From contig CAMXCT020001710.1 in NCBI GenBank assembly GCA_947184155.2, forward strand, positions 62,001-126,000: 64,000 bases of DNA, given 5' to 3'. The notes beneath the pieces were generated by a model, which saw only the letters and a program-made list of their open reading frames with translations, was not told the DNA's origin and did no database searches. The stretch is from Cladocopium goreaui (taxonomy: Eukaryota > Sar > Dinophyceae > Suessiales > Symbiodiniaceae). This document shows positions 17,467 to 46,650 of this stretch, piece after piece. The position numbers were made by a program, and so were the translations under genes. Every line of letters begins with the position of its first letter. The first letter of the stretch is position 1.

Positions 17467-17474
17467 ATCTAACT
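17467..17474 (+). repeat. Left target-site duplication ATCTAACT
   Basis: ATCTAACT abuts the left terminal inverted repeat and is repeated exactly at the right end of the element. A ninth base does not match, so the duplication is 8 bp. Confidence 0.88.
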
Positions 17475-17540
17475 TTAAGAGTGCCGATGGCGGCTAAAAA
17501 CTGGAAAATGGAAAATAATTATTTTGCGTTTTTAAGCCTT
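17475..17540 (+). repeat. Left terminal inverted repeat of the giant element
   Basis: Tip TTAAGAGTGCCGAT, then ACTGG at 17500-17504 and AATAATTATTTT at 17514-17525. The same blocks in the same order and spacing occur inverted at the right end. It continues into GCGTTTTTAAGCC (from 17526), a motif that recurs in the internal palindrome near 32326. Confidence 0.85.
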
Positions 17541-17542
17541 TA

Positions 17543-17808
17543 AAATAGCGTTGAGAAATAGCTCTGCGAAAATCTCTACTTTTCAAATAGCTTTGAGAAA
17601 TAGCTCTGCGAAAATCTCTGCTTTTCAAATAGCTTTGAGAAATAGCTCTGTGAAAATCTCTGCTTTTCAAATAGCTTTTTGATATTTTCTGCTTGTCAAA
17701 TAGCTTGTTGAAATAGCATTGTGGAAATCTCAGCTTTTCAAAAAGCTTGCTGAAATAGCATTGTGAAAATCTCAGTTTTTCAATAGCATTGTGAAAATCT
17801 ACTGTATC
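17543..17808 (+). repeat. Left subterminal 42-bp tandem array
   Basis: About six degenerate units of 42 bp built on TCTGCTTTTCAAATAGC and GAAATAGCTCTGCGAAAAT. The minus-strand reading of the right array has units of the same length beginning TCTGCTTTTAGATTAGC, so the two arrays are related and inverted. Subterminal repeats in DNA transposons commonly bind transposase; that role is inferred here. Confidence 0.75.
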
Positions 17809-17884
17809 CATTGGAAATCCGAAGACACCTGCAGTTCACCAAACTCATCACAGCGCCAAGATCAAAACTCATTCACAGTCAATT

Positions 17885-18418
17885 TTTCCATCGGCCAGCG
17901 GTCTCCAAGTCAGTCAAATCATGGCACCATTGGTATCAGATCAACAGTTTCCAACAAAGGTTGAACCAGTCATGGCAAAACATAGAGCGATAGACTAGCT
18001 AGTGACTAGTGACTAGTGAAGTTGAGTCAAGTGCCAAAACGGACCTACTGAGACGTGCTGCTCACAAAAGAGGATTGGCCTTCGGTCTCCAAGCCAGTCA
18101 AAACATGGCACCATTGGTATCAACAGTTTCCAACGAAGTTTGAACCAGTCAATGGCAAAACATAGAGCGATAGACTAGCTAGTGACTAGTGACTAGTGAA
18201 GTTGAGTCAAGTGCCAAAACGGACCTTCTGAGACGTGCTGCGCACAAGCCTTCGGTCTCCAAGCCAGTCAAAACATGACACCATTGGTATCAACAGTTTC
18301 CAACAAAGGTTGAACCAGTCAATGGCAAAACATAGAGCGATAGACTAGCTAGTGACTAGTGACTAGTGAAGTTTAGTCAAGTGTCAAAACGGACCTTCTG
18401 AGACGTGCTGCGCACAGA
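17885..18418 (+). repeat. Three ~170-184-bp tandem repeats
   Basis: Three long direct repeats start near GGTCTCCAAG at 17900, 18084 and 18254 (spacing 184 and 170 bp). Each contains the short run TAGTGACTAGTGACTAGT and ends near GAGACGTGCTGC. They lie between the left subterminal array and the stop codon of the 1337-aa gene, so they may form its 3' region. No coding sequence seen. Confidence 0.8.
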
Positions 18419-18445
18419 TGAGGCGAGATGATTGGTTCTTGGGCC

Positions 18446-21400
18446 TTAGCTCAAGAACTTCTTCGCAGAGCCAAGAAGATTGGGCTGTACAAGGCTCTCT
18501 TGCACCCCATTCTCTTGGGCAGCCAAGGCTGCATACTGCTCGGACAAAATGCCACACAGCCTCGCAGGCGACTTGCCTTCCGAAGCCCCTTCGTCCGGCT
18601 TACGCAAGAATGCAAGGGCATAAGCCATAGCAGACTCCACATACTGTACATGGGTGGCCGTGATCAAAGCCTTCCCTTCAGCCAGATGCTCACTCAGCTT
18701 CCCAAACTCCTCTCCCAAGGAATCGCCTGAGAAGCAACCCATCTTCTCAGCAAAGACATCCATCTCCTTGATCACCTTGGATGGCCGAATGTGAATTGTG
18801 AACTCTGATTGGTGGATTGCTTCGCTTCCATGTCGCTGCCATGTGTTGAAGTCTGATGAAGTCCAGTCAAACCATCAAATCTCGATCATTGGTCACTGGT
18901 CCCGTCCCGGTCCAAAATCACTAAGTCATGGCCTTGGATCAGTAACATCTAGTTACTAGTTACTAGTAATTTCTTAAATTTATATAGAACTTGAAGGCGA
19001 GATGAATACACGAGTGCCCACGCTAGCTAGCAACCCCTACAAGACTGAAGCAAGTGACTTGAGCCGACCTGTCGACCTCCGCTTTCAAGTGCTTGCCAGT
19101 GATGGAGCCCAGCGTCACGTCTGCCTTGGCAAGGACGTCATCCAAGTCAGGATCTTCACCCAAATCCTTCTTCCAATCATTGGGTCCACCTGCAAAGAAC
19201 TGGCCAGATGTCTTTGCCAGCTTGGGGATCAAACTCTGCAGAGACAAAGCAAACTGAGCGCACTGCCGACGAACAGCATCTTTCAAAGCCTCGGGCTCCA
19301 TCAACGGCCTCAGCGGCTGGATAATGTCAGAACAAAGGCAGTGGCTGAACATGCCGTAGGGATCCTCGCTGCCGTGCTCGTTCTCCTCCACGTACTCGCC
19401 CATCTTGTCAGAGATGCTCTTGAAAGAGGCGAGGAAAGAACAAACCTGAAACAGCATCGCATGCTTGGCATCGTTCTTGAACACGCTTGTGGCATCCTGG
19501 CCAAAGTCGATCTTTGAAACCTGGATCAGCAAGCTGACAGACACTCGAAGCAGCTCCACCGCATCCGTGTAGTAGCTGATGTGGGGCATTGACAATGCGG
19601 TCGCCAACTTTCCAAATTGTTTGAGCACGGCCACCAAGCTAGTCAGTCCAGCTGGAACATCTGCCTTCACCAGTGACGCCTGCGAGAAAGCTCAGGTGAG
19701 ACATGTCATTGAACTGAATAGAACAGATTCTACAGGTACAGGCGCGGGACAACCAAGTCCAGCATGATTGGATTTGCACAGGATTGTTGCATTATTTACT
19801 TCGAGTGGTCACCACCCTGACAAATTATGTCCTATGTCCTATGTCTTTATGTGGCATTCTGTCTGACACATATACGGACATTCTACCTAGCTGGCTTTCT
19901 TTCTGACATTCCATCTGATGCATTTTCTGACGCTGACTCTGGCATTCTTATTGAAATGCTATTTGGCATGTATTCTGGCAATCTTTCTAGCTTCTCTCCA
20001 ACATGTATCCATTCTTTCTGACATTCTGTTCAACTCTACTCTAATTATTTTAATTGATTTCTTTTCAAGCATCTACTATTCAACTATTCTGGCAGGTCGG
20101 CTTCTCTTGGACATATGTTCTGACATTCCTTCATTCTGACTTTCTAGTTGGCATCTATTCAATTCTGGCATTCTTTCTGGCATGTGTCCGAGTCTGTATG
20201 TGGCTAGTGGCTAGCGTGATCTGGAGCTTGCCAGGTCTGTGTGCCCAGGCGGCCCTGACCATAGCTTCCGGCGTCCAAACAGATCTGACGTTCGGGTTGG
20301 AATCCTTATATACTTTCCGGGTCCATGTGTGCCCAGACTGCTGTGGCTCTCCATGCTCGCACGAGGGAGAGAAGGAGAGGAGAAAGGGGAGGAGTTGCAC
20401 CCCTGCTGGCATTATCTAGAATCTACAGTCCAGAGTCTAGAGACCCTCACATGGCAGGTGACTCCAATTGAATGCATGTTTGAATGCCTGGAAAATCAAG
20501 AATGAAATGCAAAATTGCAAACAATGGTTAACGGTTAGCGGTTAGCAATTCAGATGAAGTTGGCTCAAAAAGTGACCATTCATCTGATGAAATCAAATAT
20601 CTAATAACTAATAAAGCTGTGAAAGCTGATATTGATGGAAACCATGGAGCATCTCTTTCTGCTATGTAGGTTGGGTCGGGATTTGGAATTCGCTGTAGGG
20701 TTTTAACTTTAAACCAGCTAAGTCTAGACTATACAGTGGACAATCCGCGTCTAGTTAAACGTATATGGTCTATAGTAATAGAGTCTAGGGCCTCGCGTCT
20801 CCAAAGTCTAGAATCTACAATCTAGACCAGGTAAAGTGACCAACAAGCAGACCAGTGACCAGTCCTCCAAGAAAGCACGGCGAAGCAACATTGGCATCAA
20901 AGTGAGCAACTGCTTGCCCACCCCGTCTGGCACAGGCACTGGAAGCTTCGCCACAAGCGGCTTCACGTGGGCCATGTCCACAGGGATCACCTCCACGTAA
21001 GTCTGGGCAGCAGCTGTCTCCATATAGGACTTCATCCACTTGCCGAAATCTGCCAAAACAATTTTCGTATTGTGCTTGGTAGCCCATTCGATGAGCTTGG
21101 TATGGGCCACCGTGCACTCAGCATCTCCCTGGAAATACTTCAACGCGTGCATCAAAGCATTCAAATCTGCTGAGCTCATGCTGATCTCCCCAGCCTTCAG
21201 GACTGCCTGCCCCAAGTCAAGGATATGAGCGCGCAACGGCTTCAGAAACGGCGTCAAAAAGCCTTTGCGCAGAGCCGCCCTCAACTTTGGGAGCTCTTCC
21301 ATGATTCCAGGGAGATGAGCAGCAAAACCGGGGGAAAGTTTAATTGCACCCTCATTCTCCTCACCGTCCTCACCATCTTGGGCTTGGAAGCTGGATATGT

Positions 21401-24400
21401 CTGCTTCAAACTTCTGCAAAACAGTGAGAGCCGGTCCATGTGTTGCAGCTGTCTTCAGCACATCCTGAACTTCCATCATCCAAAACTCCCTGGAAGCGAC
21501 CTTGATTTGGCTTGGAGAGGTGCCATCTGATGCGGGAGCAGTGAGAAGACTCTTGATTGCCTTGAAAAATGAATCCGTCTGATTTTCCCCTGTGATGGCC
21601 ACCACCTGGATCGCACTGAGTTGCCAGTTTGGGTGATCGACCCTCAGCAACACCGCGATGCACTTGCAAAAGTTGGCAAACTTTCTGAAACATGGCTCCA
21701 AGAACTTTCCAACCGAATGCGTCTGAAACCAGGCTTCGCTCTTGGGATTATGCCATGAGCTCAGATATGATGTAGTCAAACGCTCCAAGGAGAGACGCTT
21801 CTTAGGATCTGCCACCTCATGCACCAGGTCGACGAAGATGTCGCTGGTCAAGGCGTCGGTAACCACGAGTCGAAGAGCCTGCAAAGCAGGGCAGCTGATG
21901 AAGGGCAGCTTGGATTATAGGCTATTGACCATTTTCACACTGATCAGTATACACTCGTACACGCGCCTTGCATTCTATATGTATATAATGTACGCAGATG
22001 TGTGTGTGTGTGTGTGTGCAACCCCTTGACATAGAAATAATAACTAATCCATACATACTGAGTATTGTTTTTTGTATTTGTTAAAAAGGTAACTGCGGGC
22101 TTGTCACCAGCAATGCAACCTGTTTCAAACAAAATCGTTACATCACTCTGGCTCTTTCTCTCTCCTTCCGTCTACCAGCTAGGCCGCTAGACACTATTTT
22201 CACCAGCTACAGCTGCAGCTACAGCTACAGCAGTTCGAGGTCACAGAGCCTGCCTCAAGAGCGGGGTGAACTTCCTTGTCCTTCTCAGTCGCAGCTTCAG
22301 TCCCTTCAATTTTCTTCTGTCCCGTCGTGTCCGGCATGACGTTGCCAAAAAGAGCATCTTCATCTGACAGGGGCCGAAAGATTATATACGTGAGAATGCG
22401 AAATCACGGAGCCCAGTAAACTTCGTACTAACAGATCTGTGAGCGTAAGTTGAACAAACTTCTTCGGTCACTTGGGTTGTGGCCAAGTGCAAAGCTGAAG
22501 CGCTCCATTTTGAAAGGGAAACCAAAGCAATTATTAACTGCCACTAAGCTTTGTTCTTACAACTAACCAAAGACCATGGAACCTGTGGCTCCTAGGTCCC
22601 AGGACTTAGGGGCCAGAACCTAGGACCTAGGGACACATTGAAACACCCAACAGAAAACCCCACCTTCCATGGCTGATCCATCTGCGTCAACAGAACAAGA
22701 AGCACCACCAGCTGCACCAGCTCCACCCCCAAACGTACCGGTAAGCTCCTCACAAAGAGCAGCCACAATGGGGATGAAGCTTGCATTCTTGTGGTCGAGG
22801 AGGTTTGACAAGCTCGCTGAGGATGCCGTCCACAGCTCCAAGCTCGTCACAAAAGCATCGATCGCACTCAGCCGCTCCTTTTGTTCCGTCAGCGCAAACA
22901 CCCTGGACATTCGGAAGACAACCAAGTGCCCGGTAATGATGGTCGACAATTTCAATGGGAATTGGCTGGTGTACTCAGAAAGCAATTTCAAATTCGTGAT
23001 CATGGTGTGTTCTTGTTGCTCTGGCGCATGCAAGACCATAGCAGCTTCCAGTTTTACCAAGCGGTCCTCAAGAAGTTGTTCTTCCTTCGTGCCGGTCAAC
23101 TTCTTCAATGCCACCCTCGCCTGAGCATGCAAGGGGTCAGAAAGAAAGCTCAAAACAAGCAGAAGATAAGGTAGAGTGAGTGCACGCGAAATGTAAGGAT
23201 CGCAAAATATGCTCTTAAAATCTAAACTGAGAAAATCATATTAATGATATTCTATATGCACGTTACAAATGTGCTTGTGTCCTGAACACACACAAGTGTC
23301 ATTTGAGCTCAGCTCGGCTAGAATAGAAAGATACAGACAACGCTTCTCTGTCGTAGGAAGAGGTAAAAAAGAACATAGAGTGAGCCAATAATGAAATCAG
23401 AAAATTGCGAAATTTGGCATGAAGGCGCTGGGTGTTGGACTACCGGTCATCAGTCGAGGTGTGAAAATGTTTAATAGGATAGGGTGGAAGCTGCTGAGGA
23501 AAGAAGAGAGCCTGAATAGAGTCAGCAAGATTCAGACCCCACCCAGGACGTGGCTGCTACTAGTTACTAATACTTTCATTGAAAACAAAGTGCTCCGAAA
23601 TTGCTGTCCCGTGACTCCTTGCAATGCTTTTCCTAGCTTTTCGCCATTCAGAACCCTTGCGACGTCCAAGTTGAAGAAGCAAGGCGACTCAGGTCTGCCG
23701 GTGATCTGCGCATGCTTGGTAGCCACTCTTGCCATTTCCCCATCAGACTCCATCAGGGTCGTAATGCTAACCCCAGGCCCAACCGTCAAGCCTCCTTCAG
23801 AAGCCATCTCCGCGGCATCATCGTCATCATCTTCTTCCTTCGCTGCTTTCTTGGCCTTGCTGGCCTTTGTCGCAATCTTCCTCCTGGAAGCGGTGGTCGT
23901 GGCATTGCCCAAGGATCCTGTGTTCGCACTGGGCGCTTCCACAACGACACGGGGCGCCTCCATTGAAGGCTCATAGCTTCCAAATTCATCTTCTTCGTGA
24001 CCTAGTCCACCGCCCCCTCCAAGCCGTTCCATCTCAAGCTGCTTGGCGGCTTCCACTTCCTCACTCCTTTCACGAAGCTCAGAGGCACTGAGTAAGCGGC
24101 CATCTCCTTTCTTGGCAGGGTTGAATGCAGCCGGTCGAGATTCAACTAGAGTTCCAACAGCTTTCTTGTAGAACTCCTGACCCTGGTCTTTGTCAATCTG
24201 CCGCTCAGGGTACACCAACAACTCATTGCGTTCCACCGCTGTCATTTGGAACAGTCGCATCTTGCGCATGCTGAGAATGACTTCCAGCGGCAGCCCCTCA
24301 AGACCCACAGGATATAGCTCTGTCATTTTGTTGTCCTCTTGAACAACAGAATGGGCCACCAGCCCAAGCTCAACGGGCTGGGCTCCAAAATGCTTGAAGA

Positions 24401-26578
24401 CTTCTTGGAGTGTCATCATGCCCACATCTCGGAAGATGAACTGACCTTGCCATGGAAAACTGGTCGCCAGGTCAAGAGGGTACAGAGCACTGTGCACACT
24501 GAATCTCATACAAATGCAGTATATAGGGGATTCAATTTAACAAATGGTTTTCTTATTGTAACACCCCAATACCAAATGGGGAATGGGTGGTGAATCCGGC
24601 AACAATACTGAGCCGCGCGGTCCCTGACCGATGTCGCCAACCTGAACTTTAGATCTATCTACCAGGTCTTCTTCTCTACCTAGCTCAGTTCTCTTCTCAC
24701 TAACCTCCTCTCTCTCTCTCTCTCTCTGTGTGCTTTCCATACTCGACGAAGCTACAAACAAGAATAAACCTTGAAAAGTGATTTCACGCCTAAATCACAT
24801 TACAACAAACACTGAAGGCAGTAGCCATGGGCGACGGACTCCGAAATTTGCTGGGTCACAAAGACTACTAAGACTACTAAGACTAAGACTAACTGACTAA
24901 GCTTGGCACCGAGCTGAAAGTGAGCAGCGACTTGATCTGGGTCCCACATAGGAGCATTGGGGCCAGCTTTGTCAACGATCGTGTTCCACAAAGCCCTGGC
25001 TCCATTGAACTTAGCCTTGAAAAGCGGGTCGTTGGTGAAGAGCAACACAAGCTCAGACCACTCAAGGTTTGGGAAGGCTTTGACGGCCACAGTCTTGTCG
25101 GTCAAGCAGCCATTGCCTTCTGGAATCCCGTTCTGGTTGGTTGGAAACTGGACATCCTCAGTGCAAAATCTGGCTTCGGCTACGCTGAGAGTGATCACTG
25201 ACCTGCCACAACAAATTGTAACGAATGGATCAATGCCTTACATCGTGTGCTCCCCACTGGCATTTTTCTGACATTTATCCGACATCTCAATTCCCATATA
25301 TAGTAATATATGTGTTATATATATATATCTACCTATCTACCTATCTATCTGCCTATCTATCTATCTTTCTATCTATCTGTCTATCTATCCATCTATCTAT
25401 CTTTCTATCTATTACCGCACAATCTGTCATTTTCTCTTTCTCGCATATTCTCTGACAAGCAGGGGATTTGGACCTTCACCTGGTAGGTGTGGAAAAACAT
25501 ATGGATAGTTAGTTTGCGACTTTCTGAAACCTAAGGCCTGGAAGCCTAATCATCAGGAAAGCTTCTGAAGAATGCAAACCACTGCATCACTGTAGGTGCT
25601 TTGCAGCGAATTGCATGGCAAACTTTTCATATTATCGCAATGCGTTTCATTGTGGTCCATTGTCGTGCATCCGTATCTGTATTGTGTTGTGTTTGCCGTC
25701 AAATCCCTTCAAAAGATAGCTCGGCTATATAAGTAGTCAGTACAATAACCGGTAATCACAATTGTTCTGAAAACGAAAAATGCCAAGCAGCAGCAGAAGT
25801 CTTCATGCAAATGGCGCAAACACAAACTCTGGAACTACTTCCTCTTGCTGGGGCAGCGCCGCCAGAGCCCACAAGAACAAGCGCCTTGTCATCGCCTTTT
25901 CGCTTTTTAGCCCCAGGCCCCCCTCCGGCTAAGACGAGCCGTGTCTCCTGGTCCTAGCAACGCGCAAATTATTCAAAAACTGCTGGTCCATCCCCTTTAA
26001 AGAAGTGCAAATGTAGGATGTAGAATGTAGTCACGACATGGGCATCAGCATCGGCATAGACATACATAGGCATAGGCATAGGCTATGGCAGAGACCAAGA
26101 CTCAGGCTCAGACTTAGACTTGAACAGAATTCGAAATCTGAAAATTTTAGCAAGACCATGAGACCCAACAAACCCTGATAGATCCATCAGCATCCAGCAA
26201 AAGCCGTCTAGTTGCTAGAGTCTGCTAGAGTCCCAGGCCATGTCTAATCTAGTTTTTGAAATTCAAGGTTCTTTTTGTTCCCCCGTTCCTGATGCTTTAG
26301 ACTTTAGACTTACAATGCTGTTAGGATTCTTATGACACAGTCTGTACAGACAAGCACAGCGCTGCTGCAGCCAAGTCCTGCTCTGGGGCTGCTGGCGTTT
26401 GTCCCTTCCTCTTAGGCGGAGCCTTCGCAGCCGAAGACTGCTTCGGAGGCATCGCAGCTCTAAGCTCCTCTAGCTTCAAAGTCGAGAACCTACAATTTAC
26501 ACACCTCTCTTCCTGCTTTTTCTTGGGCAGTGAGAAGTGAGCGGTTGGAATTCTTTTTGCAAAGTCAGACCAATCCAT
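18446..26578 (-). CDS. Eight-exon gene for a 1337-aa protein of unknown function
   Basis: Exons: 26578-26378 (ATG), 25953-25784, 25202-24894, 24498-23574, 23120-22659, 21878-20865, 19679-19077 and 18775-18446 (TAA). All phases agree and the coding length is 4011 nt plus stop. The N-terminus is Lys/Pro/Ala-rich with a CVNC. Exon 2 has VCVCAICMKTSAAAW and exon 3 has a Cys followed by FPNLEWSEL, a Cys-x-x-Cys...Trp layout I associate with large dinoflagellate families. Exon 4 has a Glu/Ala-rich coiled-coil-like stretch, a Gly run, a Lys/Ala basic patch and a poly-Asp run. Exons 5-8 look like an all-helical region. Donors include GA and GC. It is the leftmost gene of the giant element; a role in transposition is only inferred from position. 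Confidence 0.6.
19800..20455 (-). repeat. Element-specific intron repeat, copy R1
   Basis: In the intron between exons 6 and 7 of the 1337-aa gene. Satellite part 19827-20190 made of TCTGGCATTC and TCTGACAT-type words, then a conserved block with GATCTGGAGCTTGCC, a purine-rich run (GAGAAGGAGAGGAGAAAG) and TCTAGAGACCCTCACATGGC. Same order and orientation as R2-R4. Confidence 0.75.
21993..22020 (+). repeat. (TG)n microsatellite
   Basis: About ten TG units inside an intron of the 1337-aa gene. Confidence 0.9.
22140..22620. other. Intron stretch, no gene seen
   Basis: Part of the intron 22658-21879 of the 1337-aa gene. Contains CAGCTACAGCTGCAGCTACA near 22203-22230 and short repeated GGACCTAGG words near 22600; no convincing exon. 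Confidence 0.5.
25215..25490 (-). repeat. Element-specific intron repeat, short copy R5
   Basis: In the 1337-aa gene intron 25783-25203. Starts CCCCACTGGCATTTTTCTGAC, has a TATC microsatellite in place of most of the satellite and ends TTGGACCTTCACCTGGTAGG. Lacks most of the purine-rich block. Confidence 0.6.
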
Positions 26579-26599
26579 GTCACATGAGTGAAGTGTCAA

Positions 26600-26935: not shown

Positions 26936-26937
26936 GT

Positions 26938-27344: not shown

Positions 27345-27854
27345 TGGCAACTACCATGGGGTCCTTGCTGCAATCTTTGGGATGCTCTTGTGGCCAGAGC
27401 TAGAAGAATCAGATTTGCTGCTGCTACTGCTAGTCCCGCCAATGAAGGTAGTAGGCGGACATATGCACATATCACTCTCACTTTCACCATCAAGAGGGGG
27501 TGGTAGCGGCTTCAAACATGACATACACAATGTGCGATGCATCCCTCCGCGGTTTCGGCTCTTTGGGGAAATAGGCGCTGGAGGCTCAAAGTATTCAACA
27601 TCGCCAGCATTTGACAAAGCCACTGTTGGTGCCACAGGAAACTGTAGGGTACCAAGAGCAAAACATTGACAATAGAAAGTGCCGGAAATACTTCCATACT
27701 GCAAAGATGCACCGCATCCTCGGCAAAGGATTCCGGCGGTGATGTCCACAGGCTCATCAGGGGATCCGATGATGTGATCTCTGCCTTTGTAGCTGAAGAT
27801 GTGATTATCCTTTTTCACCTTGAGGATTGTCTTCTTGACTTCCGTGAGCGCCAT
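27345..27854 (-). CDS. Small Cys-rich, probably zinc-binding protein
   Basis: ATG at 27854. The N-terminus (MALTEVKKTILKVKK) is followed by CRGCG...YCQC at about residues 44-65 and CMSC...CIC at about 109-132, two pairs of Cys doublets that suggest a bound zinc, then a Ser-rich tail. It lies between the methyltransferase C-terminal half and the 1337-aa gene, same strand. The TAG at 27345 may be the true end or the frame may splice on to 27150. The zinc role is inferred from Cys spacing only; no family recognised. Confidence 0.5.
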
Positions 27855-35912: not shown

Positions 35913-35984
35913 CTATACAGGGCACAAGTCACACATCGATGCGTATCAAATACTTACATATTTTTGCAATTGCGTTACTTCAAG

Positions 35985-36500: not shown

Positions 36501-36514
36501 GATTTGCAAAAGGA

Positions 36515-36705: not shown

Positions 36706-36899
36706 GCACATTACGCAGCCAGCAGCTAGCTACTAGCTGCTTGTTGTCAATCTTTTTTGGGCATACATGGACAATGCGGCTTCATAACGACCAGCAGACC
36801 AGCAATCTAAAGTCTCGAATATATGTCTTTGGAAAGGCTGCCTGTATTGTCCATCTATGTCATGTCTGTCACTCTGTCCAGCTTTCTGCGCAAGATGAA

Positions 36900-37670
36900 A
36901 GCATATATGTATGTATGTATGCATGCATGCATGAATGACTGCATGAATGAATATGTCAATGTAGGTCAATGATGAGTTTCTGCCAGGTGTCAGTTCGTGC
37001 AAGTCAGTTCATGTCACTGCATGCTAGGATATCTGGATATGTGCACGTATCCAGATTTTTTGTGCAAGATGATGCATGAACGCATGTATGTATGAATGGT
37101 CATTGATCATTGCATGTAGACATGAATACGTGAATGAATGATTGGATGACTGCAAACGAACGGACGAACGGGTGGAGAAATGGAGGCATGGATGAATGGA
37201 TGAACCGATCAGGACTCAGTCAATGAATGCATGAGTAAGTAGTTAAAGTAGTTTTTGTACATGAATGTAAGTGACATGAAATTGACTAAATGAAAGCAAA
37301 TAATATGGACGGAAACTTGATCCGAAATGAAGTGAAAATAAAATGAAGACGAAAAGACTTGACTAAATAGCAGCTTAAATAGCATTGAAAGAAACAATGA
37401 GTGTATGAAAGGATGACTGCACAAACGTAACGAACGAATGAACGAACAAACGCACGAACGAATGACATGAAATGAAATGAAATGAATTGAAATGAATTGA
37501 AATGAACGAACGAACGAACGAATGAATGGACGGATGGATGAGTGGATGAGTGGATGAATGAATGACATGACATGACATGACATGACAGGACATGACATGA
37601 CATGATTGTGTGTGTATGAGCATATGTGTATTTGCAAATGTGCTGTGTGTACATGCATGCATGTACTCGT
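36900..37670 (+). repeat. Degenerate ATGA/ATGC/GAAC tetranucleotide region
   Basis: Tetramer repeats (ATGA, GAAC, ATGAC) across ~770 bp of intron, directly next to the 3' end of the exon at 37692. Confidence 0.85.
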
Positions 37671-37691
37671 GCATTAATAACTACCCGTGGC

Positions 37692-38339
37692 CTGAGCAAA
37701 TTCTGTGACTGGAGGGTACCACTTGATGGATGAAAAGGCTGGAAGCTGCTCGCTGCCCAAGACATCAGCATCAGAATCAGGTTGTAGGCCATGTGGGTGA
37801 GCAACCGTGAAGAAATTGTCGAAATCAAAGCATGTGGGTGCTTTGTGGGTAGACGAACCTCTGAAACTGTCCAGCAAAGTTTGCTCTTGGTTAGCCCTAG
37901 TCCTTTTCTGATCCTTCCGATGTTCCCGAAATTTTCGTCTGATCAAACGAATATCATCTTGCAAGTCTCTGGTGGCCAAGGGCATCAGTTGAGATGACCT
38001 CACATCATCAACAGCTACTAGCGCAGTTGCTTGTGTATCACCCTGTTGCAATGCTGGTGGGGAGGAGCGCTTTGCCTTCGAATGTGCGCGCTCCCGCTCA
38101 CCAAAAGATGCGAACCCTGCTCTCCACGCAATGGTTGCTTTCAAACCCTGCTCCTTGAAGTAAGCACGCTCCTCTTCAGAAAGAGCACGGTAGCGGCGAG
38201 AAGCCTGTTGCATGGCAAGGCCTGAGAATGCCATTCCTTGACACCTCTCATGTAGGAAGGCACGGAAACCTCCCCCACCACCACCTTGAACTCCGGGTTT
38301 TTTGCTCTTTTTGACAGTCTTACCTTTCTCTGACTGGTC
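37692..38339 (-). CDS. Transposase-like gene, exon 2 (HMG-box-like)
   Basis: Starts after the acceptor TTCTTAG (TAG would otherwise be an in-frame stop) and ends at GCTCAG|GCC, a GC donor. 648 nt, phase 0 at both ends. A Lys-rich start is followed by a Gly run and then GFRAFLHERCQGMAFSG with RRYRALSEEERAYFKEQG, which has the spacing and the Leu-Ser-x-x-Glu-Arg-x-x-Tyr pattern of an HMG-box second half. HMG boxes bend DNA, so this would suit a DNA-binding module of a transposase. The ATG at 38234 inside the exon is not needed as a start. HMG similarity is by eye. Confidence 0.55.
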
Positions 38340-38399
38340 CTAAGAAATTGGCACAGGCGGTGAGATGCTGAAGGTGGCATAAGTTGAATTTTATACATC

Positions 38400-39425
38400 G
38401 ATATAGGTTTCTTGCGCCTCTACAGGCCATGAAACATTCATGATTGCTAAACAGCCTACGACAGCTGTCAAAATCACTTGTTTCCCCTTGGTTCTTTCAC
38501 GTTACTGTTTGCGATTAGGGCTGCTACTATGGACTCTTAAAGGCATGCGCCCGTTGGACAGAGCCGTTACCGTTACCCGGTACCCTTGTCGGGAAGCAAG
38601 TTGAGTGCTGCTAGCAGTATATCAAACTGTCTTGCGAAAAAAAAATGCTGAAAGAATGTTCAGCAATAAAGCAACCAACATCTTCAACGTAGCAAGCGCT
38701 TTCCATCAAGCACAGCCAGCAGGACGCTATTAGACCCACCCTGCCCCCAAACCATCTGTATACAGACGCGTAAAGGTAAAGTTCAACAAAACCGCAGCAG
38801 CTTCAACGGTAATGTCGCAAGCCCTGTCATCAAGCATTGCCAGCAGGACGTTGTTAGCACCCCTCTCCCACCTCCTCCCACCCGCCCGCATACAGCATCA
38901 CAACACTAGAGTTGACTGCACGCTCCATGAAACCCCCGGCCTTGCGATCGATAGATCGATGAATCGACAGATGTCTAAATATATTTAAATATATATGTAA
39001 ATGCATATCTTTTGTTCTGTAAGAAATCACATACCATCACCGTGAGTAGTTCTTATCTATACTTTGAAAAAACAATTTATATATATATATAATATATATA
39101 TATACATATAATGGGTATATTTACACAGGGTGATAAATAGTACCCCGGCCGGCTGGGTGTAGAAGTTTCAAAATTTAAAAGCTTAGAGAGTAGAAAATGG
39201 AAGTTGTAGGTTCTACAGCATTTGTTGCGTCATCCGTTGCCTGAGCAAGCCTTTTCCTCATATCTCCTTTCTCTGGCAGCATCTCTTTCTTTTGGCACCT
39301 GCTGATATAAAAATAATAATAGTTAATAGTCAATTATAGTCGCTATGTCCGCTATGTCGCTATGTCACCATACCCTACTATGTACCTAGTGACCTAGTAA
39401 CCCAGTAAAACAAAACAAACATAAT
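38400..39425. other. Intron of the transposase-like gene, no exon seen
   Basis: Between exon 1 (39458) and exon 2 (38339). Two similar segments start near CAAGCACAGCCAGCAGGACG (38707) and CAAGCATTGCCAGCAGGACG (38831), a ~125-bp duplication. An AT-rich run at 39075-39110. Confidence 0.55.
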
Positions 39426-39457
39426 TTTCAACAAACTGCAACAAGAAACAAAAAGTC

Positions 39458-42001
39458 CAATCTGAACTCATCACGTTGACAAGGTTCTGTGCCAGTCCGC
39501 AATCCAAGGATTTCACAGGCATTTTGCTGGACCTGCTTTCCATAGATCTCTTCTTCCCGATTTGAAACTTGTTTGTGAGACCAATCAGCGGACAAAGAAT
39601 CTATCGACGGGACCCAAGTCTGCAAACCTTTCAATGTTACCATCCTACGAGCTATCGCATGCCGTGTTTCAATCTGGGCCACATCAACGTCGATACTTTG
39701 ACCCAACGCCCGTAGGCAAACCTCTGCTTCAGGGGACCACTGTGGGAAACGGTGGTGGAAGGCACTGCTGAGTTCATCATCCAAGCATGACAGGCTTTGA
39801 CTGTAAGATGGAGCACCTTGAAGAAGTACTTTGAAAAGCTGGTAAGGTTGACCTCTCCTTGGCCTGCGAAGCAGCATTTCCATCGCGCACCCAGCTCGTG
39901 ACAACATTACGAAGTGAATGTTCAAGAGATTGGAAGTCATAGCTGAAAAAGGCATGCCACGACAAGGTCCCTCGAACTGCTGCCACAATTCGGAATAGAA
40001 TTTTTCGAGATCTTCACCTCGTGCTGCTTCCAACATCCGATATGACCTGGCTTCGCCCTTTGCAGACTTCAAGTCTTGTTCTCGGTCAAAATCACTGCCA
40101 GAAACTTGAAAGGCTTGGTTAACTGCATGCGACAGGACGTTCATGACTGATTTCATCACCACCAACCTCGGTCCAGGATTTGTCTGGCTCCATCGGCTTG
40201 AATTTTTTTTGAATGCTTTGTTGCGTTTGACCCAGTCAGTCTCTCCGCTCACATCTTCCATCTCTACGTTGCCCTCGTTCTCGGCAGCCGCGCCTTCCAT
40301 GACTGCAGCGTCTGCGATTGGTTGCGGCGGCTCATCATGACCAGCAGCACCATCATCTGGATCATCATCTGTGAGAAAATCCCAGCCGGACCACTTGGCA
40401 TGCCTGCCTTCAGCCGCTTGCTGGTGGATAGGCTCAGCTGGAAACTGTCCTACGCCTACGCCTGGAACTCCTGCAAATTTCGTTAACAATCGTTCCAGAA
40501 GACCGTGGTGACTAGCCAACAGCCCTGCCCAACATACTGCTCCATCTTGGTGGTTCCATCTATTCTTTGCAAAGCGCGGCATCTTCGATGGCAACAACGC
40601 ATGCACAACATAAGTCTTGAACTTCTCAACTGTGTCGGAAAAGTCCTTGCAACAGTTGAAGGGACACCAGTGGTAGATTCGATTGCTCTCTAGATCGCCA
40701 TTCATCATGGCGCCAAGAATGTATCGACGAACCAAAATGGAGCAACTGACATAGTCCAAGCTATTTGCATGCGGAAGGGGTAAAAAGAGATCGTGCAATT
40801 CCTCTCTGTGTTGTCTCACCCGACCCTGTGGAGGAGCATCGTAGACCACAACCAATTCGTTCTCAAATATCTCTGCCAAGATCTTCTTCAACGAATCCAG
40901 CACGCCGGCCCCATGTTGCGCCAAACTTGTGTGAAGCATCCCTGAGATGTCACTGTCAAGCACAGAAGCTGCTTTCATGTGCACCTGTGTAACAATGTGC
41001 ACGTCGCAGCTTTTGGTGTACTTGCTCCAGCTTGGGTCGTCATGAAGGAGACTCCTCTCAGCTCTTTGGTTTGCAGCGTAGCAGTCCACAGTGGCTTGCT
41101 GTAGTTTCCAACTGAAACTTCGGCTGAAGTCATCCAAGCCTGGGATCTGCTGGTAGTTGTTCAAGACTACCCTCTTCGTATTTTCTGCAGTCGTGGCATC
41201 CATGAGCTGTAACCATGTTGGCACATATCCATGCAGGTGCCAATACTGAGAGTTTTGAACATCCTTCAGAACCATGTGAAGAGCGAACTCAGACTGCATC
41301 ACCTTCGCATGTGTGGATGTTTCGGTATTGATTCTGGTGGAGCCTGGGCCTTGCCCCTGCAAACGGATCTTCAATGGAGTCTCGTCGTACCGAGACTTCT
41401 TGATGAACAGAATGGGTTCTAAACGGCCACACTCTATCAAAGATTGATAGGATCTTAGCAACCCGCACCACAGAAGGCCTCCTGCTTCCAAAAGAGCAGA
41501 TGCTCCTTGCAAACTTGAACGGGCACATTTGGTTTCACTCAAAGAGCCTTTAGCCACTTGCAAGAACTGATTCAGCACTTTGTCCGACATCCCGGCCATA
41601 TTCTTGAACAAAAAGAGCTTTGCAACTTGTGAGTTCACACGGGAGTCTCTTGGCAACTGTCCAAATGAAAATCTGGCGCTGTGTGCAAGTGCTTGCATGG
41701 CAAGGGTGCCAAGAAAACTTATGGAGCCCCAAAACGCAGAATCTGGCCAAAACATGCGAGGAACCTTGTGCTCGAGAAGCTCCTCTTCGCCAAACTTTGC
41801 TCTGTCCCTGGCCCTGGTTCTTTCCGCCAACTTGTTCTTGCCCCGCTGCACCTCCAAAACACCACGGGCATAGTCTATAGTCCCTGGTGTAGGTGTAGGC
41901 TCTTGCTGAGCATCTGGGTTGGCAACCACCAGCTCAGGCAGTGGGTCTGGTTCGTGTTCTCGCATGCGTTTCCTCAGCCCGCCCAGTGGTTGATTTGTCA
42001 T
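39458..42001 (-). CDS. Candidate DDE-type transposase, main exon (848 codons)
   Basis: Longest open frame in the window, ATG at 42001-41999 with an in-frame TGA just before it. Visible features: basic/acidic N-terminus; YDETP at residues 205-209; a second Asp in TVDCYAAN (306); CDVH at 332-335, a CxxH as found after the second Asp in hAT- and KDZ-like RNase H-fold transposases; WCPFNCCKD at 445-453; NRWNH with Arg-Trp at 481-482, recalling the TRW of hAT; an acidic insert near 550. Genes with this layout are, as I recall, expanded in dinoflagellate genomes and usually labelled hypothetical. The final catalytic Glu is not assigned. It splices on to exons at 38339, 35912, 34847 and 33437 for about 1626 aa in total; the 3' end at 39458 (TTG|GAC) is a guess, and the open frame itself runs to 39428. 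Confidence 0.6.
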
Positions 42002-42109
42002 TCAAGGCTTTAGTTTAACAGTGGCTGGTTTGTCATTCAAGGCGTTAGGTTCAGCAAGTGGTCATGTGGATTTCAAAAAGTAAAATACTTTCTCCGGGGC
42101 TCTCCACCA

Positions 42110-43440
42110 ATTCACATTCTACCTATCTAACTATGTGAGATAAACGGCCCCCACCACTTGACATCCTAACTATATGAGATTCCATCTGGCACTCTATCTG
42201 ATATTTTCATCTGGCATTCTACCTGGCATATTTTCTAGTCAGTCAAGTCAAGCCTAACTGGCACTCTATCTGGTTCTATCTGACATACAGTCTGGCATTC
42301 TATCTGTCATTCTATGTGAAATTCTTTCGGGCATTCCATGTGATAGGTAGGTAGATAGGTAGGTAGATAGATAGATAGACGGATGGATGGATAGATAGAT
42401 AGGTAGATAGGTAGATAGATAGATAGATAGATAGACAGATAGACAGATAGATAGACAGATAGACAGATAGACAGATAGATAGATAGATATATATATATAT
42501 CTCTCTCTCTTGTATTTGCTGACATTCTTTCTGGCATTCTACTTTACTTTGTCTATGGCGCACTATCTGCACTTGTATGCCCTCGAACATTATCATTATG
42601 TCTCCCTTCTGTTTAACAATATTCTGGCATCCTGTCTGGCATTCTTTGTGGCAATCTATTTGGCATATCGACTGACAGTCTGACAGTCTATCTCGCTTTC
42701 TATCCAGCATCCTATTTGACATAAATCCAGGCATGTATCTGGCATTCTATCATTCTATCATTCTTTCTGGCATAATAACATGAAATTATAGATATGTGTG
42801 TAAGTATATGTATGTATTTGACATTCTCTTCCGCATTCTTTCTGACATTTTATTTGACATATATTCTGACATTCTATCTGCAATTCTTTCTGGCATTCTA
42901 CCTGGCATAAATGCTGGGTGCTGGCATCCTATCTGACATATACTTTGACATGTGTGCCCACTGTATTGTCTATCTATCTGGCATTCTATCCTGCCTGATC
43001 TGAAATATAATCTGCCGTCCTATCTGGCATTCTTTTTGGCATTCTACTTGACATATACTTTGACATTCTAACTGCTAACTGGCATTCTTCTACTATCTGC
43101 TATCTTCTGGCATCTTTTCTGCCCTCCTATCTGAGGTCCTGTCCTACCCTGACATTCTTTGTGTGTTATCTGTTATCTGTTCAGTTCTGTGTGTCCCCAA
43201 ACCTAGCTGGAGCTCGTGATAAGGTCGGGCCCGTGCATGCCCAGACGGAGCTGCACTGGAGCTCCTGGTGCTGCGCGACCGAGGTCCGCACAGTGACGAC
43301 AGGACCGACGGGAGATGAAGAAGGAAGACGAGGACGAGGACGATGAGGAGGAGGTGGAGGAGAAGGAGAAGAAGGAGCTGGAGAAGGAGCCGATGCACCT
43401 TTGCTGATGCTAAAAATCCTAAACCCTCAGCTGGCAAGTG
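42110..43440 (-). repeat. Element-specific repeat, copy R4
   Basis: Immediately 5' of the ATG at 42001. Satellite 42120-43160 interrupted by a GATA microsatellite, then AGCTGGAGCTCGTGATAAGG, GGGCCCGTGCATGCCCAGAC, a GAGGAGGAGGTGGAGGAG run, GATGCACCTTTGC and CCCTCAGCTGGCAAGTG. Confidence 0.75.
42335..42512 (+). repeat. (GATA)n microsatellite in R4
   Basis: GATA/GGTA/GACA tetramers, ending in a short AT and CT run. Confidence 0.92.
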
Positions 43441-43639
43441 GGAAAAAAGCCTTGAATAAGCCTAAGCAATCACCCAGAATTATTTCACACCTCCTATGAA
43501 GCGTATGAAGGCTGGGACCTGGGATTACTGTTTACTATTGAGTTATTATTGGTTGACATTGAACCTTTGGGTGACGTTATGTCATGTGATGTTCAATCAG
43601 CCAAAATACACAGACCGAATCTATCTAGAAGAGATTCAC

Positions 43640-43885
43640 TACTTTTCTCCATGCTGCAGTGCCTGTGGTACCTTTTGGTCGGCCAGGGCCCTTTTTTGCT
43701 GCTGCTGCAGGTTGCGGATGGCTGAGAGAAACATCATCAGCAGCATCATCGGAGTCCCAGCCGGACCAGGCAGAAGCAGCTGGTTGTGAAGAGTTGGGGC
43801 CACCACTACTGCTACTAGCTGGCTCTGGATCGACAATATCCCAAGACACATCCCACGAATCATCCCACATGGGCTTGCGCTGGGA
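43640..43885 (-). CDS. AT-hook exon, possible first exon of the transposase-like gene
   Basis: Open on the minus strand after the acceptor CCTTCCCAG at 43888-43880, with an ATG at 43870. The product is acidic and Ser/Pro/Ala-rich, with repeated Trp (WDDSWDVSWD), then the basic KKGPGRPKGTTG, which carries the GRP core of an AT-hook that binds the minor groove of AT-rich DNA. A GC donor (ACAG|GCACTG) or a GT donor lies near 43650. It could be the 5' exon of the gene at 42001, but I found no convincing acceptor in frame; it could also end the methyltransferase half upstream. Glu/Asp-rich acidic plus AT-hook suggests a chromatin-binding tail. Confidence 0.45.
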
Positions 43886-43949
43886 AGGCAAGAGTAGTCT
43901 GCCGGATAAAATGAAACCTTCAGAGAATTTCTACTGGCTGAAGAGTGTC

Positions 43950-44110
43950 ATCATGTTTTCCTTGCAGTCGCTGTTGCTATCGTTGTTGTCTTTGTCATTA
44001 CTGAGTCATTGCTGTTGCTGTTGTTGGTGCTGTTGTTGTTCTTGATTTTGTTCCTCTTATATATATATATGGTTTTGTGTTGCTGCTGTTGCTGCTGCTG
44101 TTCTTGATGC
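43950..44110 (+). repeat. TTG/CTG trinucleotide region
   Basis: Imperfect GTTGCTGTT-type triplets with an AT run in the middle. In the large methyltransferase intron between 44292 and the AT-hook exon. Confidence 0.85.
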
Positions 44111-44292
44111 TTGTGTTTCGAAAATTGCCACAGTTGTCTTGGCTTGAACCAAGTAATGGGGGGCAATTGGCAGCCGTGGATAAGAATATATCATATCAAA
44201 CAGTCAACAGTTCAAACTCACAGGTCTGTGTGATGAGGAAATGGACACAGGCAGAACAAACAAGGATGTGTTTGCACGTACACTACTTATAC

Positions 44293-46138
44293 CACCCAAC
44301 TCAAAGCAGGCGCCCCGTTTGGTCCTGGGTCTGTTGATCTTGATCCACATTGACATGTCCAGCTGTTTTCGGATGATGTAGTAGCCACCAAATGGAAGTT
44401 CGGCTCGGTTCAGCAAATCCAGAAACCTGGGTTGATTGGGCCCAGGCGATGGGTACTTGGACAAGCTATGTCTGCGTCAATATCAGCCTGACCTAGGCCT
44501 GACCGGTTTGAAAAACTGGCGATGGGATGCAGGCAAACAAATTTATAAAAGAACCAAAAGGGAAGCAAAATAGGTAGAAACCGCTGTTTGCTGAATCATT
44601 TCGAAGAACCTGGTGTAGGGCGTTTCAGAGCTGCCCGCATGAATGGGCTTGACAAACCCAAGCACTTGTTCAAACACCAGACTTTTCGGATGTAAATCTT
44701 TCAGCCAATTCACAAAGCTTTTCATTGCAACATCAAACTCATGATGTGATTCAACAGACGATTCATTCCACCGACCACTGCGCTGCGTTGAGTATGGGTG
44801 GCATGGTGTCCCAAGCAAAGCGAAATCGATTGGTTCAGGGGCAGCTGAACATGCTGGGGAGAACGGATGGTATTCACAAGGTCTTCCCTTGCGTTGCGCC
44901 TCCAAATCTTTGAACCAATGCGTGGGCCTAGTGGTAAGCCCCACGTTGGTCTCCACAAAATGGCGACACCTCCTTTCAGGATCACTTGCGCTCATCATAG
45001 TGTAGGGGATCTTGAGAGCCTGCCAGGACGAAAGCAGTGAGCGCCGGCAACTGAAGCAATTAAGAGCAGCTGAGCTATTGACATCTATTGACCAACTATA
45101 GTAAGCGCTGGGTTGACTGGACTGCCAACCTTGGATGATTATTGGTAAAATGATTGACCAAGCTGCACTGGTTTATACTAATGACTAATGTGTTATTTGA
45201 TGGTGTTCCCAAACAATCACCCTTTGAATGTTTGAGTTTGAAGCTAAATCTAATCAAATTAAGTCGTGTCTAGAGTTTAAAGATCAAACCTTTCCCTCCC
45301 AAGACAAAAGGTCGTTAGAATGCTCCGGCTTGAATGCAAGATCTACCAAGATCTATTTGATTTGATTTTGGAACTCTGTATATAATGAGGGGAAGATGCC
45401 GATTTCGGGATCCAAATTTGAGGCTATGGCTCTGGGGTTCACATGGAGTCATGTATCAGAGCCATGGGACATATGATATGTGGATCGGAAACATTATATA
45501 TTGGTTGATTAGTTACATATATATATATATTAGTTAATCAAATCAGCTACCTGAATTTCTTGCTGGTTGTTACTGCTAAAACCGACTGCATGGATAATGC
45601 TGCTAGTGATAGATCCTGCGTGTATAGAATAGAGTCCAAAGCTTGTTTCACCCCAGAACCCTGCGCATCCCAGCCTTGAAGACAAAACCTTCTGCCCCCA
45701 TCCCTGTGCAGCCAGATACAACCTTGACATGTAGTGACTCAGGGCTTGTCGTCTTAGTCATAGTCTTTGGCTTGAGAAGCCCCAAATTCCTAGATGCTTT
45801 TTTCAAAGCCTTGACCCAAAAAGGAGCCTCAGAGTCAGAATCTTCACACTCTGAATCTGAGCTGGACCTACAAGCTTCAGCTCTCATCACATCTTGGGAC
45901 AACTGATCTTGCGAGCTGGCCAAATCATCCTCCAAATCTGCCCAATTTGCGTTCAGCTGCGCCAATCAACCGGTGGCTCTGGGAAAACAGTTGCTGTGGG
46001 ACATTGGCAACCAGTTAAACAATGACAACAAGGATTGAATTGATTGGTCCGTGATCTAGAAATCAAAAACATGGTCTTGCTTCAGGACGTGTGATAATCA
46101 GTGTGATACCTCTTTCCCACCTTGATTTCAGGGTTCAT
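44293..46138 (-). CDS. C5-cytosine DNA methyltransferase, N-terminal half (motifs I-VIII)
   Basis: Exons by hand: 46138-46121 (ATG start, tentative), 45956-45675, 45019-44592, 44471-44293; phases agree. Exon 2 has an acidic Ser-rich stretch and then motif I (GCTGMGAEGFVFK). Exon 3 gives motif II (SASDPE), motif IV (GTPCHPYS, with the catalytic Cys of the PC pair) and motif VI (FEQVLGF, canonical ENV). Exon 4 gives a motif VIII-like stretch (YYIIRKQLDMSMW, then NRPRTK). Known role of the family: transfer of methyl from S-adenosylmethionine to C5 of cytosine in DNA. The intron 45674-45020 sits between AAG|GCT and CAG|GCT and would use a GC donor. The coding sequence stops after motif VIII and continues in frame at 33037. 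Methyltransferase identity is well supported; the first exon is weak. Confidence 0.72.
45020..45674 (-). other. 655-bp GC-AG intron of the methyltransferase gene
   Basis: Boundaries AAG|GCTGGG and GGCAG|GCTCTC share AGGCT on both sides. Removing it joins motif I to motif II in frame, which a GT donor a few bases further (AG|GTTCTG) would not. Confidence 0.6.
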
Positions 46139-46315
46139 GCTTGAGAGTTGTCGGACGCGGACGAGGTTGTAACCAATCAGTGACTCACTGAAGCAGGGGG
46201 ATGTGTGGCAAAAATTTGGCTACTACTGAGTGACATCGGACATATGAGCAGTCAATTAGTGGAGCTACTGGTCGTCAATGCATGTCTTTTGCTAGTCTAA
46301 GAGTCTAAGATAAAC

Positions 46316-46577
46316 ATGGGTCTTTCTGGGAAGGCAATCAGAAAATGCTAATCAGTTAATCCAAAAACAAACTTCCTGGGAATGCAATTTTGAAATGCTA
46401 ATCGAAAAGCAGACTTCCTGGGAATGCAATTTTGACATGCAAATCTACTAAAAGCAGACTTTCTGGGAATGCAATTTTGAAATGCTAATCTAAAAGCAGA
46501 CTTTCTGGGAATGCAATTTTGAAATGCTAATCTAAAAGCAGACTTTCTGGGAATGCAATTTTGAAATGCTAATCTGG
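46316..46577 (-). repeat. Right subterminal 42-bp tandem array
   Basis: About six units on TTTCTGGGAATGCAATTTTG and AAATGCTAATCTAAAAGCAG, period 42 bp. Units nearest the right tip are almost identical, inner ones degenerate. Inverted relative to, and alignable with, the left 42-bp array. Confidence 0.78.
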
Positions 46578-46642
46578 GGCCTAAAAAAGCTAAAATAATT
46601 ATTTTTATGCTGCCCAGTATTTAAGGGGATCGGCTCTCTTAA
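46577..46642 (-). repeat. Right terminal inverted repeat of the giant element
   Basis: Read on the minus strand it starts TTAAGAGAGCCGAT, followed by ACTGG and AATAATTATTTT at the same offsets as in the left repeat, then AGCTTTTTTAGGCC, which aligns with GCGTTTTTAAGCC of the left end. Imperfect outside these blocks. Confidence 0.85.
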
Positions 46643-46650
46643 ATCTAACT
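46643..46650 (+). repeat. Right target-site duplication ATCTAACT
   Basis: Exact copy of the 8 bases left of the element, directly after the right terminal repeat (GGCTCTCTTAA). Same orientation, as expected of a target-site duplication. Confidence 0.88.

Follow-up and report, generated by a model that had tools for sequence, protein, structure and literature searches.

The window analysed here is a stretch of 64,000 nucleotides from Cladocopium goreaui and contains no N. Inside it lies a segment of 29,168 bp flanked by a perfect 8-bp repeat, with a transposase gene, the exons of a methyltransferase gene on either side of it, and a third gene, D, all on the minus strand (Table 1). Gene D would consist of the exon-like ORFs at 25237-24803, 24536-23535, 23240-22623, 21914-20811, 19691-19026 and 18868-18449, with possible extra exons as far as 26602. 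Its exon D2 is present at three loci, every one on a transposase contig; D1 has a weak match at the locus labelled C501, and D5 has a match at C1890. Structure prediction for its exon 4 from four sequences was too poor for use (mean pLDDT 54.7). A Cys-rich ORF, possibly an exon of a further small gene, has no relative among the five loci compared. An earlier sequence-only reading had counted five minus-strand gene units. A count of three genes seems closer, since a pair of these units would be the two halves of a single methyltransferase gene flanking the transposase gene.

Table 1. Coordinates of the features of the segment within the window.
Feature	Position	Strand	Basis
Left 8-bp target-site duplication ATCTAACT	17467..17474	.	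Seen in sequence; left ends of other copies
Left inverted tip TTAAGAGTGCCGAT	17475..17488	+	Same or nearly same tip in 7 other left ends
Subterminal palindrome AAAATAATTATTTT, 14 bp, 37 bp inside left tip	17512..17525	.	Seen in sequence
Left subterminal 42-bp array	17539..17796	+	Repeat analysis
170-bp tandem repeat, 3 copies	17899..18420	+	Repeat analysis
Gene D (exons joined by inference, boundaries approximate)	18449..25237	-	Exon-like ORFs and relatives
Cys-rich ORF, possible exon of a further small gene	27354..27866	-	ORF
Putative C5-methyltransferase exon, motif IX-/X-like (LTPFQHLLLQG; MAGEAIALP)	29651..30013	-	Cross-locus comparison
Central palindromic (foldback) array, 91.4% self-complementary	31372..32585	.	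Also retained by short non-autonomous copies
Motif VIII exon of the methyltransferase gene, starting at base 33437, 3' boundary approximate	33326..33437	-	Cross-locus comparison
Predicted 10,887-bp methyltransferase intron, GA donor/AG acceptor, enclosing the transposase gene	33438..44324	-	Splice phase
Transposase gene, from an inferred ATG at 43870 to the TAA at 34243	34243..43870	-	ORFs and relatives
857-aa hAT-like DDE transposase core (D206, D306, C332, H335, E778)	39431..42001	-	Alignment and predicted fold
Methyltransferase N-half	44207..45965	-	Exons within 45965-45651 (motif I), 45172-44546 (motif IV TPCHPYS, VI FEQV) and 44476-44325 (motif VII)
Right subterminal 42-bp array	46357..46575	-	Repeat analysis
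Subterminal palindrome AAAATAATTATTTT, 14 bp, 37 bp inside right tip	46592..46605	.	Seen in sequence
Right inverted tip, TTAAGAGAGCCGAT read inwards	46629..46642	-	Sequence and short-copy comparison
Right 8-bp target-site duplication ATCTAACT	46643..46650	.	Seen in sequence

Ends, duplications and related loci

The ends carry everything from which the sequence-only reading had delimited one giant (~29.2-kb) DNA transposon. The claimed inverted tips share 13 of 15 bases, the flanking 8-bp repeat is perfect, the equally spaced block is a palindrome at the same distance inside each tip, and the inverted 42-bp arrays are found inside both ends, their units diverged but in register. When the inverted ends are compared, 69 of the first 110 bases are identical, and none of 2,000 random pairs exceeded 44; over 60 bases the count is 39, and none of 4,955 GC-matched pairs exceeded 32. 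Ten Markov shuffles of the window yielded no 8-bp repeats with tips of at least 13/15. The real window has 21 such pairs including the element's own; the remaining 20 are AT-rich simple sequence or members of a dispersed palindromic repeat. Taken alone, the pair in the window allows two readings, TTAAGAG tips next to an 8-bp duplication and TTTAAGAG tips next to a 6-bp one. The other copies fix the length at 8 bp and the shorter reading is rejected, since in six of seven other left ends the similarity starts exactly at the first base past the duplication, and the perfect 8-bp duplications of two short copies, C1495 (TAATATGA) and C2779 (GTTTACTG), adjoin TTAAGAG.

Those short copies have the ends of the window element and retain its tips and central foldback but carry no genes. 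A third, C1557, is two-ended and has no duplication. Aligned with the giant form, C1495 and C1557 have both internal junctions in common, one agreeing to about 11 bp, which is what deletion derivatives would show. Altogether, five perfect 8-bp duplications are paired, at five loci. All five follow the nnnTAnnn target preference of the Buster group, as do 9 of 13 target sites overall.

About 19 related loci occur in this genome. Matches to the transposase and the methyltransferase co-occur on the same 19 contigs, and motifs IX-X of the methyltransferase have no match on five of the 19. The transposase is 100% identical only to itself at the window, and the other matches in the genome are 27-37% identical. 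A stop interrupts six of the 25 further transposase stretches, spread over five contigs, so some relatives have decayed. Six relatives were fetched at length and clear ends were found in two, C501 and C2223, which are giant relatives with tips of their own and perfect 8-bp duplications (GGATAGCA and TGATAGGT, respectively). The tips of C501 match at 12 of 15 bases, and 30 shuffles yielded two such spanning pairs. In C2223, the inverted similarity ends beyond the tip (24/60), and its left end has no close second copy, one 72% match stopping short of the tip. The tips of the three giant elements have little in common beyond TT. At C1890, C2077 and C3287, the sequence runs into contig ends or missing sequence; the candidate end pairs sought at C1890 and C2077 reached 11 or 12 of 15 and were discarded, being either simple sequence or no better than chance. 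Two candidate pairs at C4157, extended, were also rejected (12/15 and 11/15); they have no convincing further similarity and no central TA, and their 60-bp identities of 23 and 27 were matched or beaten by 87 of 4,972 and 8 of 4,969 controls. At C3101, the methyltransferase is on the opposite side. The expectation that other loci would combine the same ends, related genes and an 8-bp duplication holds in two parts at separate loci, with the same ends inside different duplications in the short copies and related genes inside duplications, though with other tips, at C501 and C2223. No single locus combines them, and no second full-size copy with the exact ends of the window element was found in the genome. 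Beyond this genome, IMG/VR gave seven pattern hits, none of them confirmed, and no relative was found in phage records or, by sequence, in the PDB.

The transposase and methyltransferase genes

The transposase gene begins with an acidic first exon that looks AT-hook-like by eye, followed by the RNase-H core ORF and by further exons within 38339-37677, 35912-34614 and 34869-34246. An HMG-box reading of 38339-37677, also made by eye, was dropped because Pfam gives it no support. In the alignment, both D residues and the C and H of CxxH are present in 24 of 24 rows, and the E is present in 14 of the 15 rows having a residue there; we take these to be the equivalents of the Hermes residues. The predicted structure is an RNase-H fold with a large helical insertion; in fold it comes closest to Hermes, with the next group scoring well below. 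Foldseek found nothing at E <= 0.001 in the PDB or BFVD, the best viral hit being a Pandoravirus hAT-dimerisation protein at 1.1e-3. Among 18 transposase members, neither the Pfam profile for the hAT C-terminal dimerisation domain nor those for KDZ transposase and CxC matched at E <= 1, and no BED zinc finger was found by Pfam in the core ORF or the first-exon ORF. Taken together, the fold and the target sites point to a hAT-like transposase. A Pfam scan of 20 minus-strand ORFs of the element returned neither family B DNA polymerase nor retroviral-type integrase, the hallmarks of Polintons.

The joined methyltransferase exons of the window score 22.0 bits against PF00145, which equals the cut-off (E 1.3e-4), and single exons of relatives at C4157 (E 1.9e-6) and C1890 (E 2.9e-7) are over it. 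The catalytic PC motif, TPCHPYS, is at 44809. By profile and motif, the product thus qualifies as a putative C5-cytosine methyltransferase. The motif IX-/X-like exon alone has no Pfam match. The transposase gene appears to sit, on the same strand, in an intron of this gene. Both exons flanking the proposed intron were found in four of six loci, with identical splice phase in those four; a pattern scan detected neither exon at C1890 and C4157. Matches to the motif VIII exon are weak at C501 (E 0.004) and C2077 (E 0.009). The predicted join reads without interruption as INRPR-IFLIFLRRD, and a gene model of Durusdinium trenchii has the identical motif VII-VIII join.

Interpretation and alternatives

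We regard the segment as very probably a giant cut-and-paste DNA transposon that encodes a hAT-like DDE transposase and its own methyltransferase. The transposase would bind the inverted tips, the palindrome and the subterminal arrays, bring the two ends together, cut the element out and, staggering the cuts by 8 bp, insert it into an nnnTAnnn target. It would also mobilise short, internally deleted copies that keep both ends, and the methyltransferase gene would travel with the transposase gene. The genes are presumably spliced and expressed together. With one gene nested on the same strand in a predicted intron of the other, alternative processing of one transcript could therefore yield either enzyme. 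The methyltransferase may act on the element's own DNA, either to control the ends or, the genome being methylated, to mark newly made copies. More tentatively, and with chances we put somewhat short of even, this could be a separate, anciently diverged giant hAT-like branch, spread through the Symbiodiniaceae, in which a methyltransferase intron houses the transposase and alternative processing serves as the element's own epigenetic switch.

Two alternatives concern the genes. The methyltransferase could be a split enzyme made as two proteins, with an ordinary transposase gene between them and no spanning intron. Bacteria do have two-subunit C5-methyltransferases, the join is a prediction from the letters, and its flanking exons were detected in just four of six loci; the constant codon phase of donor and acceptor in those four, the uninterrupted reading and the Durusdinium model argue against it, and we think it rather unlikely. 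Membership of the transposase in a different superfamily that makes 8-bp duplications, such as KDZ/Zisupton-like elements, is also unlikely. The failure of the hAT profiles would fit this, as would the giant-element tips TTAAGAG, TTCAGA and TTATGA, which deviate from the usual hAT consensus. However, Pfam includes KDZ transposase and CxC profiles and these fail to match too, while the Hermes fold match and the nnnTAnnn sites favour hAT; we know of no solved KDZ structure for the fold comparison.

The other two alternatives concern the element as a whole. Short elements with 2.4-kb type ends might have captured an existing transposase-methyltransferase block, the giant form then being moved by a foreign transposase. 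The short copies are gene-less yet keep the tips and the foldback, and ends outnumber the matching giant form. Against this, the internal junctions shared by C1495 and C1557 fit deletion derivatives, and C501 and C2223 have this block too, enclosed by other tips, which suggests that block and ends diverged together rather than met once; we judge this composite origin quite improbable. Very improbable, in our estimation, is a segmentally duplicated host cluster of the methyltransferase, a domesticated hAT-derived gene and gene D, with flanking repeats due to chance or to a small transposon trapping the cluster. Most relatives are indeed old, judging by their identities, and verified ends are missing from most of them. 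But inverted tips and perfect 8-bp duplications surround the same gene set at three loci independently, the short copies have duplications of their own, and the catalytic D-D-E is retained.

Comparison with known elements

A typical hAT-type cut-and-paste element measures a few kb and has a single gene. A multigene hAT-like version of 20-29 kb would be evidence that large sets of genes can be kept stably in transposons of this type, and it makes testable the idea of a DNA transposon that regulates its own movement through its own DNA methylation. Relatives elsewhere in the genome have their genes in the same order, which suggests a giant mobile element of a kind that has drawn little notice and that may mark DNA besides moving. 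The earlier suggestion of an undescribed family agrees with searches of open-access papers; the words "hAT" and "dinoflagellate" do not occur in the main text of the review PMC6431247.

With the hAT superfamily, the element shares short tips and subterminal repeats, and with Hermes a predicted RNase-H fold with a large helical part and the order D, D, CxxH, E. The Buster group (TcBuster, Mar) has the same 8-bp duplication with a central TA (PMC3517528). The window element differs from that group in its 29-kb multigene size, its lack of a sequence-level hAT profile, its tips, its N-terminus (AT-hook-like by eye) and its methyltransferase cargo. Polinton/Maverick, Teratorn and Starship elements are in the same size class of at least 15 kb with several genes (PMC6431247 for the first two). 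Polintons, however, encode a retroviral-type integrase along with a family B polymerase, Teratorn combines a herpesvirus with a piggyBac-like transposase (PMC6431247), and Starships use a tyrosine recombinase. Fungal hAT7 and KDZ transposons are DNA transposons that carry TET/JBP genes, whose product also acts on cytosine methylation; in three hAT7 elements the TET/JBP gene is found upstream of the transposase, both pointing the same way (PMC12730594). There the cargo is a dioxygenase rather than a methyltransferase, the hAT7 duplications are 7 bp rather than 8 bp, and the portion of that account available to us contains no nested-intron layout. Marine-virus DNA transposons with an encoded methyltransferase, mentioned in PMC5890265, share that combination. 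According to the same source, retrotransposons of this lineage acquired C5 methyltransferases independently, as SymbioLINE-Dnmt and SymbioDIRS-Dnmt3 of Symbiodinium. Those dinoflagellate elements have intronless methyltransferase ORFs (PMC5890265), whereas the window element would be a DNA transposon with an intron-rich methyltransferase gene that appears to enclose the transposase gene.

Ends of the element and their other copies

The sequence-only reading had defined the giant element (17467–46650) by matching tips, an equally spaced block, 42-bp arrays and a perfect 8-bp repeat, and all of these are present at its two ends. The inverted tips are TTAAGAGTGCCGAT and TTAAGAGAGCCGAT; AAAATAATTATTTT begins 37 bp inward of each, and the 42-bp arrays follow it inside both ends. 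Read inwards, the ends share 69 of 110 bases, where 2,000 random pairs reach no more than 44, and 39 of 60, where 4,955 GC-matched pairs reach no more than 32. Ten Markov shuffles of the window gave no 8-bp repeats with tips agreeing at 13/15 or better. The real window, which contains no N, has 21 such pairs, the element's own included; the other 20 are AT-rich simple sequence or members of a dispersed palindromic repeat.

Searches covered the 1.166-Gb assembly of 6,202 contigs. The left end was found at seven other places in seven different flanks, and in six of them the match starts exactly at the first base after the duplication. The right end was found on 11 other contigs; the seven in which it extends to six or fewer bases from the tip were inspected, and two of these, C3337 and C965, share one flank. 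Copies with the same ends and different 8-bp duplications, the check proposed in the sequence-only reading, exist at C1495:89336–91759 (2,424 bp, TAATATGA at either side) and C2779:779281–780016 (736 bp, GTTTACTG at either side). C1557 also has both ends, with a damaged right tip and without a duplication. Three parts make up the C1495 and C1557 copies: the left end, the element's central palindromic array (window 31131–32718) and the right end. The two have both internal junctions in common, one exactly and the other within about 11 bp, and C2779 repeats this three-part structure in shorter form. A mobile deletion derivative is the probable ancestor of these short copies. The other copies of the ends thus fix the duplication length at 8 bp and indicate that window-type ends were mobile.

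A 1.2-kb near-perfect palindrome lies mid-element (31372–32585), and the short copies keep it while losing the genes; it possibly has a cis role in movement. At C5175:207778–207978, a left-end remnant of about 70 bp lies between 15-bp direct repeats, CATATTCCGATATTC, and could be what abortive repair after excision leaves.

Giant relatives and linkage of the genes

In the assembly, 26 exon-like stretches, spread over 19 contigs, match the 857-aa transposase ORF (39431–42001), the ORF itself among them. The 25 others have 27–37% identity, and six contain a stop. The DNA around six relatives was taken at length (C1890, C4157, C501, C2077, C3287 and C2223), and clear ends were found for two. The C501 element (20,634 bp including both duplications) has tips TTCAGACTTCTTAAATC and TTCAGAGTTCCTAAGTC with GGATAGCA at either side; the tips agree at 12/15, as did two spanning pairs in 30 shuffles, and the inverted identity of 36 over 60 bp is above all 4,857 controls. 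The C2223 element (25,571 bp including both duplications) has 15/15 tips, TTATGATTATCTCTC, with TGATAGGT at either side. No 15/15 pair occurred in 30 shuffles; the similarity ends after the tip, at 24/60, equalled or passed by 64 of 4,931 controls. Convincing ends were not found at the other four: C1890, C2077 and C3287 reach contig ends or missing sequence, and two candidates at C4157 did not stand out from controls.

A methyltransferase exon was found at 19 loci, on exactly the 19 contigs with transposase matches, and in 18 of them (C3101 differs) it lies 1.7–5.1 kb upstream of the transposase on the same strand. The exon with motifs IX–X was found at 15 loci, in 14 of which (the exception is C3675) it lies 5–21 kb downstream of a transposase on the same strand. 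The assembly search gave no match to it on five of the 19 contigs, and in four of these the transposase is at most 13 kb from the contig start. The D2 exon of gene D occurs at three loci, each on a transposase contig, with weaker matches to exons D1 and D5 at C501 and C1890. These counts are lower bounds. For four of 15 methyltransferase relatives in the protein database, the longest contig equals in size that of a relative of the transposase or of gene D (29,322; 456,901; 228,971; 484,971), which suggests, short of proof, the same linkage in other assemblies.

Positions 1–6344 of the sequence taken from C3287 and C4157:159906–166255 are copies of the methyltransferase–transposase block with 98.5% identity over 6.4 kb; their similarity ends sharply in microsatellites that lie on the upstream side of the methyltransferase. 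At C2077:20075–20349, a tip-like TTAAGAGAACAGAC followed by a 41-bp tandem array is oriented away from the transposase and perhaps marks where a different element ends. The dispersed palindromic repeat, with cores ATAGCTAT/ATGGCCAT (window 5685–5712, 14557–14630, 46743–46816, near 55455 and 61864), has translated matches in C1890, C501 and C2077 and is perhaps a small non-autonomous transposon. A minisatellite of 12/24-bp units (TCTGGCATTCTATCTGACAT-like) occupies non-coding parts of the element (28893–28989, 36189–36260, 42170–42336, 42819–42908) and occurs near the C501, C2077 and C1890 relatives. A 10-bp tandem repeat, AGGAATCCCA, has 30 copies at 60873–61176 with several frames open.

A methyltransferase gene predicted to enclose the transposase gene

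Coordinates of the duplication and of the methyltransferase exons in the window
Feature	Position	Sequence or motifs
8-bp duplication, exact	17467–17474 and 46643–46650	ATCTAACT
Methyltransferase N-half exons	within 45965–44325	SGCTGMGAEG, TPCHPYS, FEQV, motif VII stretch ending INRPR
Methyltransferase downstream exon	starts 33437	motif VIII, IFLIFLRRDVYSRDDAAKF
Methyltransferase last exon	within 30013–29651	motifs IX–X: LTPFQHLLLQG, MAGEAIALP

The motifs, which are those of C5-methyltransferases (among them VII, VIII and IX–X), were assigned by eye. The predicted splice joins an upstream exon ending AG/GA to a downstream exon starting CAG/G, and its phase is consistent in the four loci with both exons: the window, C501, C2223 (donor GA in all three) and C2077 (GC). 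Dinoflagellates use GA and GC donors. The gaps between the flanking exons are 10.9, 6.2, 9.7 and 9.2 kb, respectively; the motif VIII exon matches are weak at C501 (E 0.004) and C2077 (E 0.009), and a pattern scan found neither flanking exon in C1890 or C4157. Against Pfam PF00145, the N-half alone gives E 0.038, the N-half plus last exon 0.0014, and insertion of the motif VIII exon between them 1.3e-4 (22.0 bits, equal to the cut-off), for a joined query that retained two residues excluded by the predicted splice; the match spans the N-half/motif VIII join. The same join, as ISRPR-LFLVFLRKDAYSKDDAKRF, is also present in a gene model of Durusdinium trenchii. The transposase gene, from ATG 43870 to TAA 34243, lies entirely within the predicted 10,887-bp methyltransferase intron on the same strand, an arrangement in which both enzymes might come from one primary transcript.

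Proposed mode of movement, and target sites

The element is most simply read as a giant, autonomous cut-and-paste transposon that encodes a hAT-like transposase and takes a methyltransferase along. Three giant loci with independent tips and duplications speak against an immobile cluster of host genes. The giant transposon would move itself by cut-and-paste through its own transposase, short deletion derivatives would be moved in trans, and the methyltransferase would be carried along; we infer that it may control or mark the element. No description of this element was found in the open-access literature searched, including passages of PMC3517528, PMC12730594, PMC5890265, PMC6431247 and PMC9998398. 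Marine-virus DNA transposons encoding a methyltransferase are mentioned, citing other work, in PMC5890265.

All five paired duplications (ATCTAACT, GGATAGCA, TGATAGGT, TAATATGA and GTTTACTG) have TA at positions 4–5 (p 4e-7 at a TA frequency of 0.052, for a pattern seen in the data first and tested afterwards). With eight one-sided flanks added, C965 being left out as identical to C3337, the central TA is present in 9 of 13 sites, and TA occurs 0 or 1 time at any other position. A central TA in an 8-bp duplication is given in PMC3517528 as the target preference of the Buster group of hAT transposons, and this is the TA placement seen in these duplications.
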